NCBI GenBank assembly: GCA_947463095.1
Contig: CANHRE010000020.1
Location: forward strand, 1 to 37,021
Origin: Flavobacteriales bacterium
Lineage (GTDB): Bacteria; Bacteroidota; Bacteroidia; NS11-12g; UBA955
Direction of reading: 5' to 3'
DNA length: 37,021 nt
Shown here one piece after another: positions 240 to 7,221 of the stretch. The notes under the pieces were generated by a model. It was not told the DNA's origin. It was given only the letters and a program-made list of their open reading frames with translations, and did not search any database. The stretch's first letter is position 1. Each line of letters opens with the position of its first letter. The translations under genes were made by a program, and so were the position numbers.

Positions 240-270
240 GCCGAAACCCTTAACCAGTAAGGGTTTCGGC
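240..270. terminator. Perfect hairpin between CRISPR array and cas2
   Basis: A 13-bp perfect stem (240-252 with 258-270) closes a 5-nt loop eight bases after the last repeat. It lies where array transcripts (+) and the cas operon transcript (-) converge. Neither side has a clean T-run: the + side reads CTGCTGTTGCTG and the - side TTTCTGTTGTG. It may be an imperfect bidirectional terminator or a processing or insulating hairpin. Confidence 0.45.
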
Positions 271-762: not shown

Positions 763-1851
763 TTAACCAAGCTCCTTTTCAAATTCTTCTACCGTTGGAA
801 GTTTGCTTTTCAACTCGGATGGAAGCGCCCGGGTAATCATAAAATCACTGACCCCAATTGGCTGATTCATGCCTCTGAGGGCATATTCAACTTCCAGTTT
901 GTTTTTATTCTTGCAGAGGATGATACCGATACTCCGCTCATCGCCCGGATTTTTTAACCGGTCATCAAGTACGGATAAATAGAAATTCATTTTACCCGCA
1001 AATTCTGGTTCAAACGCAACCGTTTTTAACTCAATGACTACAAAGCACCGAAGGCGAATGTGGTAAAAAAGTAAATCCAGGCGATAGTCCTTATCACCAA
1101 CCTGCAGGGGATACTGACGACCAACAAATGCAAAACCCTTGCCTAGTTCCAGCAGAAATTTGGTGATGTGTTCGGTGAGTTGCCGTTCCATATCCAATTC
1201 TTGTGCTTTAGGTTCCAATGTCAGGAATGCAAATATGTAAGGGTCTTTTAATATCTGGCCTGCCATCAATGCCTGTTTTTCAGGCAGTGTTTGATGGAAA
1301 TTAGTGATTGCTTTCCCATGCCGACTAAATAAATCCTGCTCCATCTGAAGCAATAGCACAGACCGACTCCAGTTATTCTCAAGGGTTTGCCGGGTATAGA
1401 ACAATGCCTCTTCGATGCTTCGGGCTCTATCCAATAAGGTGACATGATGCCCCCAGGGTATTCCAAAAATTAATTCCTCCGGTCCAACAGGCTGCAGGTC
1501 TGAAGTCCCAGTATCCCACGCGCCGGATGCATCGGTTAAATTCCCGGTGATATTCAGTCCAACAGCCTGTTGGACTGAACCGGCTGAATAGAAGCGGTAG
1601 AACTTTCTCATGTAGAACAAATTAGAACGGGAAAACCCTTTAATATCAGGGAATTCCGCATGAAGGTCCCTTGATAATTGATGTACATAGTTGTTTCTAC
1701 CTTCAAAAAGGGCCTGGTTTTCAGCGATTTTCTTGCCAATATCCCAATATAGCCGAATCAGTGCCTTATTAACCGCTAACACTGCCCTGCTGCGGGCCGT
1801 TTCAATCTGTTGTCGAATCTCTTTAAACAGTGCTTTATATTCTGATTCCAT
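763..1851 (-). CDS. YhcG-type PDDEXK nuclease (DUF1016) inserted in the cas operon
   Basis: This 362-aa protein has the two-part layout of the YhcG/DUF1016 family. The N-terminal winged-helix-like domain covers about residues 1-85 (WDIGKKI, FSRSNLFYMRKFY). IPWGHH at 131-136 starts the next conserved block. The C-terminal half is a PDDEXK-fold nuclease with Asp259 (DYRLDLLFYH) and Glu274-x-Lys276 (VVIELKT) as the likely metal-binding and catalytic residues. Length and motifs look complete. YhcG proteins are common near restriction-modification genes and mobile elements, but their biochemical role is not settled. Here the gene sits between cas1 (87 bp upstream) and cas2, on the same strand. Residues 90-128 form a Gly/Thr/Asp-rich linker that includes a 27-bp perfect inverted repeat in the DNA. 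It may be a passenger defence gene or a functional accessory of the CRISPR system; the sequence cannot decide. Confidence 0.9.
   Translation of the reverse strand: MESEYKALFKEIRQQIETARSRAVLAVNKALIRLYWDIGKKIAENQALFEGRNNYVHQLSRDLHAEFPDIKGFSRSNLFYMRKFYRFYSAGSVQQAVGLNITGNLTDASGAWDTGTSDLQPVGPEELIFGIPWGHHVTLLDRARSIEEALFYTRQTLENNWSRSVLLLQMEQDLFSRHGKAITNFHQTLPEKQALMAGQILKDPYIFAFLTLEPKAQELDMERQLTEHITKFLLELGKGFAFVGRQYPLQVGDKDYRLDLLFYHIRLRCFVVIELKTVAFEPEFAGKMNFYLSVLDDRLKNPGDERSIGIILCKNKNKLEVEYALRGMNQPIGVSDFMITRALPSELKSKLPTVEEFEKELG
1553..1579. repeat. 27-bp near-perfect palindrome inside the yhcG-like gene
   Basis: Two 13-bp arms (1553-1565 and 1567-1579) are perfect reverse complements around a single base. 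They lie in coding sequence for the linker (Ser-Val-Gln-Gln-Ala-Val-Gly-Leu) of the PDDEXK protein. The transcript could form a hairpin here only if the tip is opened to make a loop. No function is assigned. Confidence 0.8.
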
Positions 1852-1938
1852 AATATTAAAATCTACTTGTGGAACTCATTGAACGTATGATATTCTCCTT
1901 GCTCATGCGTTCAGCATTATAGTTTAAATACAGTCCTA

Positions 1939-2853
1939 TTACTCCTGGAAGGAGGGATACAGGATTTTGCGCTGTTCTCCGAGGTAGCAGCGCGCCAAAC
2001 TTGCCGCTGTGCGCTGTATGGCCACCTGCAAGGGACTTTTCTGTTCGTCAATTACCACATCTGTCTGCAATACCTGAAGCAAGGCCAGCTTGTGTTCCTG
2101 CATCATAGGTTCTATGGCTGAAGTTTTCTGGATGATGCCGCGCACCACCTGATCTACAAAAGGCCGGTAGGGTTCCATGATGTCGTCGGCCAGGCAGAAG
2201 GCGTTGTAGCGGTTGCGGTGGAAGATGCCGAGGGTGGGCAGGAGTCCGCTGCCGCTGAGCGCCCTGGCTGTGGTGGCGCGGATGACCGCATAACCGTAAT
2301 TGAGCAGGTTATTCGGGGGCGCACCATCTCGACGGCGGTAGAAATCCCAGGCCGGAGGAAACAAACGCTGCCAGTAATAATAGCTGCAATGTGCTTCCTC
2401 ATTGTTACTGTCGCCGCTTTTCACCATACGTGCACGTTCCATAAGGAACTGATGTTCGCCGCCCCAATGCTTCAGCACGGCTCCCTGGTTGCGGATTTTC
2501 GCGCTGATGGTCTGCTGCCAGAGCTGCTTCTTCAGCGGCTCGCTGGCTTCCACCTGTGCGCGGAAACGTTCGCTTTGCAGGGTATGTCCGTCGAGGTTCA
2601 GGAACATCCCCACCGGCATCATCTTCTCATCGCAGGCGATGAGCGCCACATTGTGCTCCATCATCCTAGCCAGCAATACATGGGTGATGCTGACTTGAGG
2701 ATGTTCCAGCACCACGCAGCCCAGGTCTTCCAACGGGGCCGTCTTATCCGGCATGTCTTCTTGTCCCCTAACCCTGCTGTATTCGGCCACCAGTTGCCCA
2801 TCGCGGAATTTCAGGTGGCAGGGCTGGGCGATGAGGAGGGTGCGGGAAATCAT
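1939..2853 (-). CDS. cas1: CRISPR-associated endonuclease Cas1 (type II-C)
   Basis: Cas1 is the integrase that inserts new spacers at the leader-end repeat. The 304-aa protein has the N-terminal beta domain and then the helical catalytic domain. The expected metal-binding residues are visible: Glu in NNEEAH (about 143), His202 in IFHRNRYNAFC and Glu217 in DDIMEPYRP. Length fits type II Cas1 (about 300 aa). It starts 6 bp after the cas9 stop, so the two are almost certainly co-transcribed. Its usual immediate neighbour, cas2, lies about 1.25 kb further on because of the intervening nuclease gene. Confidence 0.97.
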   Translation of the reverse strand: MISRTLLIAQPCHLKFRDGQLVAEYSRVRGQEDMPDKTAPLEDLGCVVLEHPQVSITHVLLARMMEHNVALIACDEKMMPVGMFLNLDGHTLQSERFRAQVEASEPLKKQLWQQTISAKIRNQGAVLKHWGGEHQFLMERARMVKSGDSNNEEAHCSYYYWQRLFPPAWDFYRRRDGAPPNNLLNYGYAVIRATTARALSGSGLLPTLGIFHRNRYNAFCLADDIMEPYRPFVDQVVRGIIQKTSAIEPMMQEHKLALLQVLQTDVVIDEQKSPLQVAIQRTAASLARCYLGEQRKILYPSFQE

Positions 2854-2859
2854 TTCTGA

Positions 2860-5800
2860 CTACTTAGTAGCATGGGATGAATTTCCTAGTTTGTCAACAT
2901 TCAATTTAAAACAAACCTCACGAATCATCCTGCCATCCATAGCTCGTTCAGTTTTGTTTGGAGATCCGAATTCAACTTTATCCGCGACAATAGAGCTTAT
3001 CGAATTAGGCATAAAATAACACTGCTTACCCGATACACTTACCATCTTGTAGCATTTCAAACTCGATACCGAAATTTCGCCTCCATTTAATTCACCTTGA
3101 TCAGGAATAACCACCAAATCCCCAGGTGACAACAGGAACCATCTGTAACCAGGTCTTTCTTCTACAAAAGCGGTATTGTTTTTTCTGGCCTCAACAACCA
3201 CCCTTAAAGGGATGCTTTCATATTGCCGGTCGCTAGGGTCCACTTCATTCACATAAATTACGAAATACAAATTGGTTCCTTTGTCAGCTTCTGTGTATTC
3301 GCCAGGTCGAATCTCGAATTTCGAACTGGACTCTTCATAGGTGGAAACTTTGCTCAGGGGGCGTTTTCTATTCTTATTCAGGATGTCTATGCCCTCTGCA
3401 CTCCATGGTTCCAACTTTGCATCAGCAGGACGGCTTGCATTCAATTCCTGAATATATTCGAGGTGGGCTTTGAGTTCCTTTTGCAGTTTTTCGTCGGGGA
3501 TTTTCTCAATACGTTTTTCATCAAAGCCAGAAGCGAGCTCTACCCTGCTGCCATAAACTTCCTTACGGAAACGGATAAGAACGCTTTTTACTTCTTGTCC
3601 ATTGGGGTCTATTATGGGCTGTTTCTTTAATGCTTTCTTTATGGATTCTGCATTGGATTCATGCTCGAGCAACAAGGACTTTATTTTCTTCCTGAGCTGG
3701 GCATCTATAATTCGGTCAGGATGATTGATAGCCTCACCAATGTTCACGGATTTTTTATCCCACACTTGAAGTTTGCTTGCTATCGTCGCTTTATGCAATG
3801 ATTTACGGACATAAAAGGATTTATTTTCTCTGTCAACGACCAATTGCTTCTTCCATGAGCCATCAGTCTGTTGGACATAGCGCCAATTGCGGTTGGCCTT
3901 CTTGCCGATGATTCGGATGTTCTTCTTGAAGCTTACAATGAGGTTTTCCAGTTTAGCTTTTGCTTCATCCCGAAAACCCGGCCAGGGCTTTCTGAATTTC
4001 CTGGACTGCAGGTATCCGTTCTTCCCTGCTTCAAGCAATTTAGGCAAGCTTTTCTTCATTTCCTCGTCATCATCTTCTTCAAATTTCCTCGCCTTACTCA
4101 GGTCATTCAGGAATTTAATGTGAACCCTGCTGGTGCAGGCTATCACCAGGGCATCTAGGGCATGGTGTCTGTGGTCAATACGCTTTTCGTAGCCTTTAAG
4201 CTTCAGAATCTTTCTACCTGTTGGGTTGCCGTCAGCATCTTTCTGGTCATCGTACCACCAGTAACGTTCACCAGTTTTTTCCTGAAGTCGCTCGAAACGC
4301 CACTTCACCAATTCTTTCATAAGCTCGCCCAAACCCCATTCCGACCTGAGTTCACCGGTAATGGTACCTGTGGTATTGATTAAAGGATCTCGCTGGTTTT
4401 CTGCCACAGGCCCGAGTAATTCGCCCAATTTCTTACCGATGTAACGTGTATCGGTCATATGACGGTTGCTGAACTTATCCGGCACGTCATCACTGAGCAG
4501 GAGTTCCTTTTTCTTTTTGAAGAAATACCTGGACACAAATTGCTCGTAATCCGTAACACTTAATACACCTCTTTCCTTATTGCCGCCTGTTCTGATGTAT
4601 TCCATGGCGGTCATATTTCCTTTATCCTTGTTCAGTCTTGATTCTACAACAACCTTGTTTTCCAGTGAATCATCAAAGAATCTGGAGCGCGGGATGATAT
4701 GATCTACTTCGAAATCAGAAGTGAAGAGCCGGTTCAGCGGTATCATTTTGCCGCTGTAGGGTGATGTAAAGTGCTGTTCGGCCCAGAGCTTGTATTTGTT
4801 TACTTCATCAGGAGTTGGCTGTGCCGGCTTCTTGAATTTCAACTCCCGGAACTGGGCTTTAGCTTCGGGTGAAACCTGTTGTTCTGCGAGTTTCAATTTT
4901 TCAACATCGCCCATGGACATGGAACTGCCACCCACTTTCAATTCCTTAATCAGGGCTGCAATACGTTCATTGGTGATTCGGTTTTCCTCGATTGTGGCGG
5001 ACATTTTTTCGCGTTCCTTGGCGTTTTTCTTCAGTTCCCGAGATAATTCAATATGGATTTCCCATGGTCGGCCATACTCTTTCCAGATATCCCGAACCAT
5101 ACGAAGGGTTTCATTCACCACTTGTTCCACAATGGGATTTCTCAGGTTCAATGGTTCGCCGGGAACTACCTGTTCCGGTCTTTCAAAATAAACTGGGTTA
5201 AATTCCCGGGAAGCACCATATACGGCATATTCCGCCAGGCGCACAGGAAGTCCCTGGCAATCTTGTTCCGACCTGATCCTGTGTTTTTCAAAAAGTTCCC
5301 GCACATTCACAGGGATATCCGGATCGTCTTCACCGGTAAAGAACTTGGTTAATCGATCGCGTGTAGATGCATCAATCTGCTCCCAACTCCAGTACTTTCC
5401 GGAACGCATCAAAGGGAGCAGTCGTTTCAATGCCTTGGTGGAAAGTGAGGTGTATTGTGATTTGAAGGCCTTCATCTTGACTATGATGTCCGCCTGTTCC
5501 TGACTGAATCCGAATTGCCGCTTCAGCCCGCTGATGATGCCATCGTCATCAGCAAGCGAATAGAACATGTGCCAAAGCTTTTCATATTGCACCGGATCAG
5601 CCATGATGGCTTCACCTTCAGCTGCAACTCCTGCTTTTTTAAAGCGATTCCTGAACGCTGTTTTCGTTTCTGAGGCCGGTAATTCCTTGTCTTCTGCTGA
5701 ACGGAACAGATTTATCAGATAGTCCTTTTCGTCCAGCTTGAAGATTTTCAAGATTTGCTTCTGAGTTATCCGCTCTTTCCCATCTAGTTCTTCGAAAAGT

Positions 5801-7167
5801 TTAATTTGCGTATCGGCATCAAAAAACCTTTCAGATACATCAACATCTGTTTTTAGCTCCTTACCAACTCGCTCTTCCCGCTTAAGAATCCGAATATTAT
5901 TTACCGTTTGCCAAAGCCTGAATTCCTGAAATACAGGACTGCTTACAGGTGCTGCCTTGTGTGCCTGTAGCTTATGCGTCATCGGGTCGCGGTACGCCTT
6001 AAATTCATATCGACAGTCGGCAATGCTGCTCTTCTTGCTCTTCAGCGGACGTTGATAGTAGATAATGTCATTGAGGAACAAGTGAATCAAATCGGAATTT
6101 GCCACTTCTTTCTTTTTGGCCTCATTCTTTGGATAGAATACCTCCGCTATTCTGCCTATCGCCTCTTTAGAAAACAAGCCGGCATTCAGTTCCAGCTGCT
6201 TATTCAGAATGGCTTTAAGCTCTTCTACGTAGAGGGTTCTGTCGATGGTTACATTTTTTATCCGGTAATCAGGATTGTTCTTCAGTTGATGCAGGTAATA
6301 TGATCCCGGAAAATGATGAACAGAACGCTTGATATCTACTTCTCTGGCTACTTTCTGCTTTGCCCAATTGTCTTTATCATTGTTTGCTAACTGCCTGAAT
6401 TCAAGCCTTAACTCTCCGGCTTTGTTCCTTATCGTGGTGATTTCCAGTTCAACCTCTTTCCCAACCCAGTCCGGTGCTAACTTCCGTGACAGATTACCTG
6501 TTCTACCATCGTCCAATGACACTGCATAAATACTGTTGCCTTTATTCTTTTCGCCTGTGTCGTTGATGGCAGCAACATGAACTATTTCAACCTTCTTTTC
6601 CCTTTTTGGCGCGGAACTGCCTGTTTCTTCCTGTTCGTCTTCAGGCAAACCATCATCGCCGGAAAGGCGATTACTTTTAAAACCACGGCGTTGATTCATA
6701 TTGTACAGAATCATCGCCAATTCTTCTTTTGTTAATGTTTCAAACAGCCCTTTGTGCCTGAGATAGTAGATTATCCAATCATCGGAAATACTGTCTATTC
6801 CGAAAAAAGAACGCATCTCAGAAAGCAACTCAGGTCGCAACTGAATACGACCTCGCATTCCTATTTCTCCCTGATTCTCGAATACAAATTCCGATGGCAA
6901 CCAGCCTAACTCCTTTAATGCTGTTACAAGTCTTGCTCTGCGCAGCTTATATCGCTGCCTTAGTCTTCTTGCACCTCTGGCTTGTCTTCGCTTTGCGTTT
7001 TTAGATGCCGCCTGCCCTTTTTCAAAATTCGACATCAATTCGGGCTCAGTAGGAATGATCCTTGAACCTAAAGCGATGATGTTACCTGCCTGTTGCTCAA
7101 TGTCTCTTTCAATAAAGGCCCAACCAATTGAGTTCGTTCCAATGTCTAAACCAAGAATTTTTTTCAT
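2860..7167 (-). CDS. cas9: CRISPR-associated endonuclease Cas9 (type II-C, large Bacteroidota form)
   Basis: RNA-guided DNA nuclease of 1,435 aa, counted from the ATG at 7167 (MKKILGLDIGTNSIGWAF). All active-site motifs are present: RuvC-I Asp8 (LDIGTNSIGWA), the Arg-rich bridge helix about 58-87, RuvC-II Glu707 (HIELSRE), HNH Asp822-His823 (FEVDHIIPRSRFF), and RuvC-III His1002/Asp1005 (RHHALDALV). Roughly the last 300 residues would be wedge and PAM-interacting regions and are not conserved enough to predict a PAM. With only cas1 and cas2 as partners (no csn2 or cas4), this is subtype II-C. Such large Cas9s are common in Bacteroidota. An in-frame ATG at 7185 would add six residues and fall inside the degenerate repeat; I consider it unlikely. 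The start codon directly abuts that repeat (7168-7221). Confidence 0.98.
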   Translation of the reverse strand: MKKILGLDIGTNSIGWAFIERDIEQQAGNIIALGSRIIPTEPELMSNFEKGQAASKNAKRRQARGARRLRQRYKLRRARLVTALKELGWLPSEFVFENQGEIGMRGRIQLRPELLSEMRSFFGIDSISDDWIIYYLRHKGLFETLTKEELAMILYNMNQRRGFKSNRLSGDDGLPEDEQEETGSSAPKREKKVEIVHVAAINDTGEKNKGNSIYAVSLDDGRTGNLSRKLAPDWVGKEVELEITTIRNKAGELRLEFRQLANNDKDNWAKQKVAREVDIKRSVHHFPGSYYLHQLKNNPDYRIKNVTIDRTLYVEELKAILNKQLELNAGLFSKEAIGRIAEVFYPKNEAKKKEVANSDLIHLFLNDIIYYQRPLKSKKSSIADCRYEFKAYRDPMTHKLQAHKAAPVSSPVFQEFRLWQTVNNIRILKREERVGKELKTDVDVSERFFDADTQIKLFEELDGKERITQKQILKIFKLDEKDYLINLFRSAEDKELPASETKTAFRNRFKKAGVAAEGEAIMADPVQYEKLWHMFYSLADDDGIISGLKRQFGFSQEQADIIVKMKAFKSQYTSLSTKALKRLLPLMRSGKYWSWEQIDASTRDRLTKFFTGEDDPDIPVNVRELFEKHRIRSEQDCQGLPVRLAEYAVYGASREFNPVYFERPEQVVPGEPLNLRNPIVEQVVNETLRMVRDIWKEYGRPWEIHIELSRELKKNAKEREKMSATIEENRITNERIAALIKELKVGGSSMSMGDVEKLKLAEQQVSPEAKAQFRELKFKKPAQPTPDEVNKYKLWAEQHFTSPYSGKMIPLNRLFTSDFEVDHIIPRSRFFDDSLENKVVVESRLNKDKGNMTAMEYIRTGGNKERGVLSVTDYEQFVSRYFFKKKKELLLSDDVPDKFSNRHMTDTRYIGKKLGELLGPVAENQRDPLINTTGTITGELRSEWGLGELMKELVKWRFERLQEKTGERYWWYDDQKDADGNPTGRKILKLKGYEKRIDHRHHALDALVIACTSRVHIKFLNDLSKARKFEEDDDEEMKKSLPKLLEAGKNGYLQSRKFRKPWPGFRDEAKAKLENLIVSFKKNIRIIGKKANRNWRYVQQTDGSWKKQLVVDRENKSFYVRKSLHKATIASKLQVWDKKSVNIGEAINHPDRIIDAQLRKKIKSLLLEHESNAESIKKALKKQPIIDPNGQEVKSVLIRFRKEVYGSRVELASGFDEKRIEKIPDEKLQKELKAHLEYIQELNASRPADAKLEPWSAEGIDILNKNRKRPLSKVSTYEESSSKFEIRPGEYTEADKGTNLYFVIYVNEVDPSDRQYESIPLRVVVEARKNNTAFVEERPGYRWFLLSPGDLVVIPDQGELNGGEISVSSLKCYKMVSVSGKQCYFMPNSISSIVADKVEFGSPNKTERAMDGRMIREVCFKLNVDKLGNSSHATK

Positions 7168-7221
7168 GTTGTGTATATATAGCAATTATCACTATTATTG
7201 TACTCGAAAGCAAATCACAAT
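7168..7221 (-). repeat. Degenerate CRISPR repeat abutting the cas9 start (source of the tracr anti-repeat)
   Basis: Read on the minus strand, this 54-bp stretch begins TTGTGATTTGCTTTC after one mismatch (bases 2-16 of the array repeat, exact). It ends ACACAAC (bases 41-47, exact), and only the middle differs in sequence and length. It lies between the tracrRNA body and the cas9 ATG at 7167. On the plus strand its complement provides the tracrRNA anti-repeat. Confidence 0.85.

Follow-up and report, generated by a model that had tools for sequence, protein, structure and literature searches.

We found that, in a 37,021-nucleotide stretch of DNA from a Flavobacteriales bacterium (the window), an intact gene for a DUF1016/YhcG nuclease sits between cas1 and cas2 of an otherwise complete type II-C CRISPR locus. 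The gene belongs to a clade associated with BREX, has a foreign composition, is the only one of its kind at such a position in our survey, and occupies a junction where other cargo is found in other genomes. Most likely, a solitary defence-type nuclease of this clade landed, co-directionally, at a cas1/cas2 junction that tolerates insertions.

The order on one contig is tracrRNA anti-repeat, cas9, cas1, DUF1016/YhcG, cas2 and array, with the four genes on the minus strand and every ORF intact. The anti-repeat (7206-7220, plus strand), a 15/15 nt match adjoining the cas9 start, marks a probable tracrRNA. The gene for Cas9 (2860-7167; Pfam HNH_4/RuvC_III) begins with an ATG, the ORF being open from a TTG at 7185. 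It is followed by a type II cas1 (1939-2853, 304 aa; Pfam Cas_Cas1, 1.6e-29), by the PD-(D/E)XK nuclease gene (763-1851, 362 aa; assigned by Pfam, PADLOC and tree) and by cas2 (346-705, 119 aa; Pfam CRISPR_Cas2, 6.7e-17), with an alternative in-frame ATG at 684. Type II Cas1 (TIGR03639), Cas2 and Cas9 all score above the NCBIfam cut-off. Three CRISPR repeats of about 48 nt with 77-nt spacing (30-232, no strand assigned) belong to an array cut by the contig start. Having cas9, cas1, cas2, tracrRNA and array, and neither csn2 nor cas4, the locus is of type II-C as far as the contig reaches, which ends inside the array. Between cas2 and the array lies a terminator-like hairpin with a 13 bp stem (240-270, minus strand), of a kind found no more often than in shuffled sequence.

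An earlier note on this DNA, made from its letters alone, had described a type II-C operon with functional-looking cas genes and an intact YhcG/PDDEXK gene between cas1 and cas2, on the same strand and with short flanking gaps, and all of this holds. The gaps, both on the minus strand, measure 87 nt towards cas1 (1852-1938) and 57 nt towards cas2 (706-762), the latter with no second copy in the genome. Like the note, we found no target-site duplication around the gene, and no flanking inverted repeat either.

As for composition, GC3 is 0.44 in the nuclease gene, 0.47 in cas9, 0.70 in cas2 and 0.71 in cas1. Because cas9 is also low, composition is not decisive, and low GC3 alone is not proof that the nuclease gene is a newcomer. 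The operon itself shows a contrast between cas1 and cas2, near 0.70, and cas9. In the Cas1 tree, the window Cas1 groups with two proteins from other families (L148 and L149), and not with those of the family to which the window belongs (L207, L246-L249), which suggests that the cas locus has moved horizontally.

In terms of the protein, both family domains are spanned at full length (Pfam DUF1016_N, 3e-35; YhcG_C, 5.7e-64), and it is therefore not a chance ORF. The best PADLOC match is PDC-S02, with an E-value of 1.2e-137 over the entire protein. The catalytic residues that the note had named, Asp259 and Glu274-x-Lys276, are indeed kept: D259 and K276 are invariant across 31 DUF1016 proteins, and position 274 is E in the window and D in its closest relatives. 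Judged by its domains and catalytic residues, the protein is a member of the YhcG/DUF1016 family with a predicted nuclease activity. Its AlphaFold2 model is of moderate confidence (mean pLDDT 66.7); the alpha/beta core is modelled more reliably, and the linker (residues 92-123) is disordered. The best PDB structure matches of the model, all weak, are the PD-(D/E)XK nucleases AdnA, NucS/EndoMS, SSO0001, which is Cas4-like, and MGME1; ACE1 is also among the weak fold matches. A sequence search for a solved structure of a relative found none.

The nearest relatives, sought in 84,980 genomes, are four proteins (L015-L018) with 68-73% protein identity, and each of the four genes comes straight after brxC, brxA and brxB also being upstream. 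Immediately after them comes pglX, in the three with sequence beyond, and pglZ and brxL are found further on in L016 and L018. Another relative (L019, 66% identity) adjoins a MntA/HepT-like pair. In the DUF1016 tree, the window protein joins the four BREX-1 proteins and L019 with a support of 100, on a fairly long terminal branch. The rest of BREX-1 was not found around it: the neighbours are cas1 and cas2, not brxC, pglX, pglZ or brxL, and a search of the window's own genome found no BrxC, the same search finding BrxC in the L018 genome as a positive control. The nuclease alone, and not its neighbourhood, belongs to the BREX-associated clade. A published report (PMC4316617) also describes DUF1016 as a passenger of mobile elements, in one case lodged between the traU and traW genes of a Rickettsia element. 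A separate observation concerns the PglX of L016 (11098-15129), where residues 390-479 match the REP-associated tyrosine transposase NF047646, below the cut-off.

A possible trace of the origin lies in the 87-nt gap, which contains, upstream of the present nuclease start and out of frame, ATGAGCAAGGAG; this looks like the beginning of the BREX-clade genes together with part of the end of brxC. When this flank was compared with the brxC-DUF1016 junction, shuffled sequences scored as high in 0/500 cases for L017 and 2/500 for L016. In a ranking of similarity among 108 sequences, L017 came second, L016 third and L018 fifth, with an unrelated gene first. This is suggestive of a fragment that may have been taken from a BREX operon. 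A likeness of the 3' flank to BREX was dropped, as only L018 stood above most shuffles and this was gone in the wider ranking.

The same region raises the question of decay. The original start appears frame-shifted, with the present gene starting later and ending about four codons earlier, and these changes, the fairly long terminal branch and the broken cargo seen in other gaps (L240, L196) would all fit a neutral or decaying insertion that is functionless at present. We nevertheless regard this as unlikely, given a full-length ORF with both domains and the catalytic residues kept. Moreover, altered family-conserved sites number 11/136 in the window, mostly conservative, which is no more than the 12/137 in L018 within a BREX operon. 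The gene is intact and has few changes at conserved sites, and is therefore either still maintained or a recent arrival. For the window gene, synonymous sites are saturated, which leaves dN/dS uninformative.

To place the arrangement among related loci, Cas1 was searched in samples of relatives and at class, phylum and order level (one genome per species, mostly draft assemblies), and 120 other loci were fetched with their flanks and their gene spacing measured. Among the 114 other Bacteroidota loci having both genes, the cas1-cas2 gap is at most 101 bp in 100, is longer and non-coding in 4, and contains one gene in 10; an eleventh cargo locus, L156, has its gap gene cut by the contig end. Within the order, cas1 and cas2 are adjacent in each of the 11 other genomes whose Cas1 is full-length. 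The note had proposed a search for DUF1016 in the cas1-cas2 gaps of other loci, and this came back empty, with DUF1016 in 0/120 of the fetched loci. The converse search gave the same picture: a Cas1 profile found no Cas1 in approximately 1.45 Mb flanking about 120 other DUF1016 genes. No DUF1016 lies beside cas genes among the 80 nearest genome loci, in 395 phylum-level genomes, or among 126 of 395 class-level genomes with DUF1016, whose listed coordinates were set against the Cas1 list (closest pair: G569, about 8 kb apart). Viral contigs yielded one match at 47%, which is unrelated, and plasmids none above 50%. In the literature, of which our coverage is limited, we found no link of DUF1016 to CRISPR cas1 or BREX except incidental mentions. 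With a single locus in the survey, DUF1016 does not recur as a core or accessory component of type II-C systems.

Other genes do occur at this junction. A single gene fills the cas1-cas2 gap at 11 other loci, and all are co-directional with the cas genes, like the window DUF1016. These encode GIY-YIG proteins (L148, L243, and a broken copy in L196), DUF559 proteins (L231, L164, and a broken copy in L240) and Y1/TnpA-REP-type transposases (L239, L189, L191, L216, L156), where L189 and L216 are below the Pfam threshold and are called transposases by 37-56% identity to the others. Mapped onto the Cas1 tree, the 12 loci with cargo, window included, need 11 changes, of which at least 10 are forced by well-supported branches. 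Two close sisters illustrate this, the gap being empty in L236 and holding the broken DUF559 in L240. The window's closest Cas1 relative, L148 (about 62% identical), has the GIY-YIG gene and not DUF1016. Furthermore, extra genes are present in the cas9-cas1 gaps of up to 32/112 loci, an upper estimate in which the nearest upstream ORF of at least 350 aa was taken as cas9 and not each confirmed. Of the 38 ORFs found there, 37 are co-directional, and the cargo includes Y1 transposases (11), RhuM (4), Fic (3) and nucleotidyltransferases (3). Both junctions of Bacteroidota loci tolerate single-gene passengers, with recurrence of cargo at the cas1-cas2 gap. The shared direction would most simply reflect selection against inserts that disturb the expression of cas2 or cas1.

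By eye, REP-like palindromic repeats flank the cargo in the cas1-cas2 gaps of L216, L156, L148 and L240, and in L216 and L156 similar repeats also seem to lie within the coding sequence of the transposase.

These counts bear on whether the nuclease serves spacer acquisition, for example as a prespacer-trimming partner of Cas1-Cas2, a task that falls to Cas4 or DnaQ-type exonucleases elsewhere. An intact gene that lies between cas1 and cas2, shares their strand and is separated from each by a short gap would suit such an accessory, and so would the weak fold matches to PD-(D/E)XK nucleases, including ACE1 and the Cas4-like SSO0001, and the presence of other nucleases (GIY-YIG, DUF559) in the same gap elsewhere. 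We consider it very improbable, as DUF1016 is found at one locus only, its relatives occur apart from CRISPR genes, the gap cargo is heterogeneous, with two broken copies and with transposases, and stray genes are found at the cas9-cas1 junction too. There is no sign of the window DUF1016 touching Cas1-Cas2. The earlier note had offered an acquisition accessory and a recent passenger side by side; the first lost ground in the survey, and the second gained from the BREX clade, the uniqueness of the locus and the recurrent cargo at the same gap. The note would have settled for a chance insertion if no other II-C locus had the gene there and close relatives had cas1 and cas2 adjacent. It came out largely so: no other locus in the survey has the gene there, and cas1 and cas2 are adjacent in 100/114, among them those of the order. 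Two things go beyond the note: solitary genes have landed in this gap repeatedly, and this DUF1016 is of the BREX-1 clade.

The nuclease gene has another feature within its own coding sequence. At 1553-1579 (no strand), in the linker just before the PWGH motif, it contains a perfect palindrome with 13-bp arms and a 1-nt centre, where the RNA is predicted to fold well. A long DNA palindrome at this position is found in DUF1016 genes from many phyla (survey of the window, L015-L094 and L271-L299). Arms of at least 10 bp are present in 56/107 distinct DUF1016 genes versus 2/56 control ORFs, and in 57/107 the palindrome surpasses every one of 30 synonymous-codon shuffles made from its own gene. 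When aligned on PWGH, 65% of 13 pairs are complementary, versus 40% (maximum 43%) in 100 synonymous shuffles. The arm sequences covary, differing between genes with complementarity kept through several base-pair types. The palindrome is preserved to a degree that the encoded protein alone does not call for. We know of no description of such a palindrome for DUF1016, within an incomplete coverage of the literature. The linker also has tandem VQQ[AP]VG or VHQAGGQL units, variable in number and encoded by the palindromes, in the window (residues 92-123, where the model is disordered) and in L015-L019, L022, L271 and L272.

YhcG genes could be partly autonomous elements of a homing-like kind that enter defence operons at their junctions, with the palindrome as part of their cycle. 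Their occurrence in BREX, beside a MntA/HepT pair, in cas1-cas2 and on mobile elements agrees with this, as does a covarying palindrome at a fixed position in the gene; in-gene REP insertions are known as well from the REP-type transposases of subclass 2.4 (PMC6006769). Around 30 other DUF1016 genes, though, the palindrome was found inside the genes only; the window's own has no second match in the genome even with 3 mismatches allowed, and defined element ends are missing, so that we find this improbable. Similarly doubtful is the narrower idea that the nuclease recognises the fixed palindrome of its own gene, as a cruciform or hairpin, and that this aids entry at brxC-pglX and cas1-cas2 junctions.

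We therefore return to the passenger nuclease. A YhcG/DUF1016 gene from the brxC-pglX clade of Bacteroidota BREX-1 would have landed at cas1/cas2, oriented along the cas transcript. It would still be under constraint and probably be co-transcribed with both genes and expressed on the cas transcript, under a selection independent of Cas1-Cas2. Foreign DNA is the presumed target of DUF1016 genes associated with defence elsewhere; here the protein, if active at all, may act alone as a nuclease on foreign or unusual DNA. Against this reading stand the intact state of the gene, the low GC3 of cas9, and a search that found neither element ends nor a target-site duplication. The closest Cas1 relative being only about 62% identical, there is no near-identical empty site for comparison.

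This result calls for caution, since gene order alone is weak ground for adding a protein to the CRISPR machinery: among the type II-C loci of Bacteroidota, unrelated co-directional genes occupy about a tenth of the cas1-cas2 gaps and up to roughly a quarter of the cas9-cas1 gaps. The window also provides an actual example of a nuclease of the BREX clade that stands apart from BREX, inside another immune locus. The in-gene palindrome, if confirmed, would give a testable substrate or regulatory element for an unstudied nuclease family.

Finally, compared with known systems, the window has the cas9, cas1, cas2, anti-repeat and array of Bacteroidota type II-C loci in the usual order, but its cas1 and cas2 are split by an extra gene. 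It shares a single co-directional gene in this gap with the intact GIY-YIG, DUF559 and Y1/TnpA-REP loci, whose cargo is of other protein families and, in the inspected examples, has REP-like flanking repeats that the window DUF1016 lacks. PDC-S02, the PADLOC model of DUF1016 singletons, matches the whole protein, but is a model of candidate defence genes without a CRISPR tie. The REP-type transposases of subclass 2.4 offer a parallel of in-gene palindromic insertion in a different family. Lastly, the Bacteroidota BREX-1 operons (brxA-brxB-brxC-DUF1016-pglX-...-pglZ-brxL) have a DUF1016 with the same domains and linker type, in the same fully supported clade, but theirs follows brxC, abuts or overlaps the pglX start and has D-x-K, whereas that of the window lies in a cas operon and has E-x-K.
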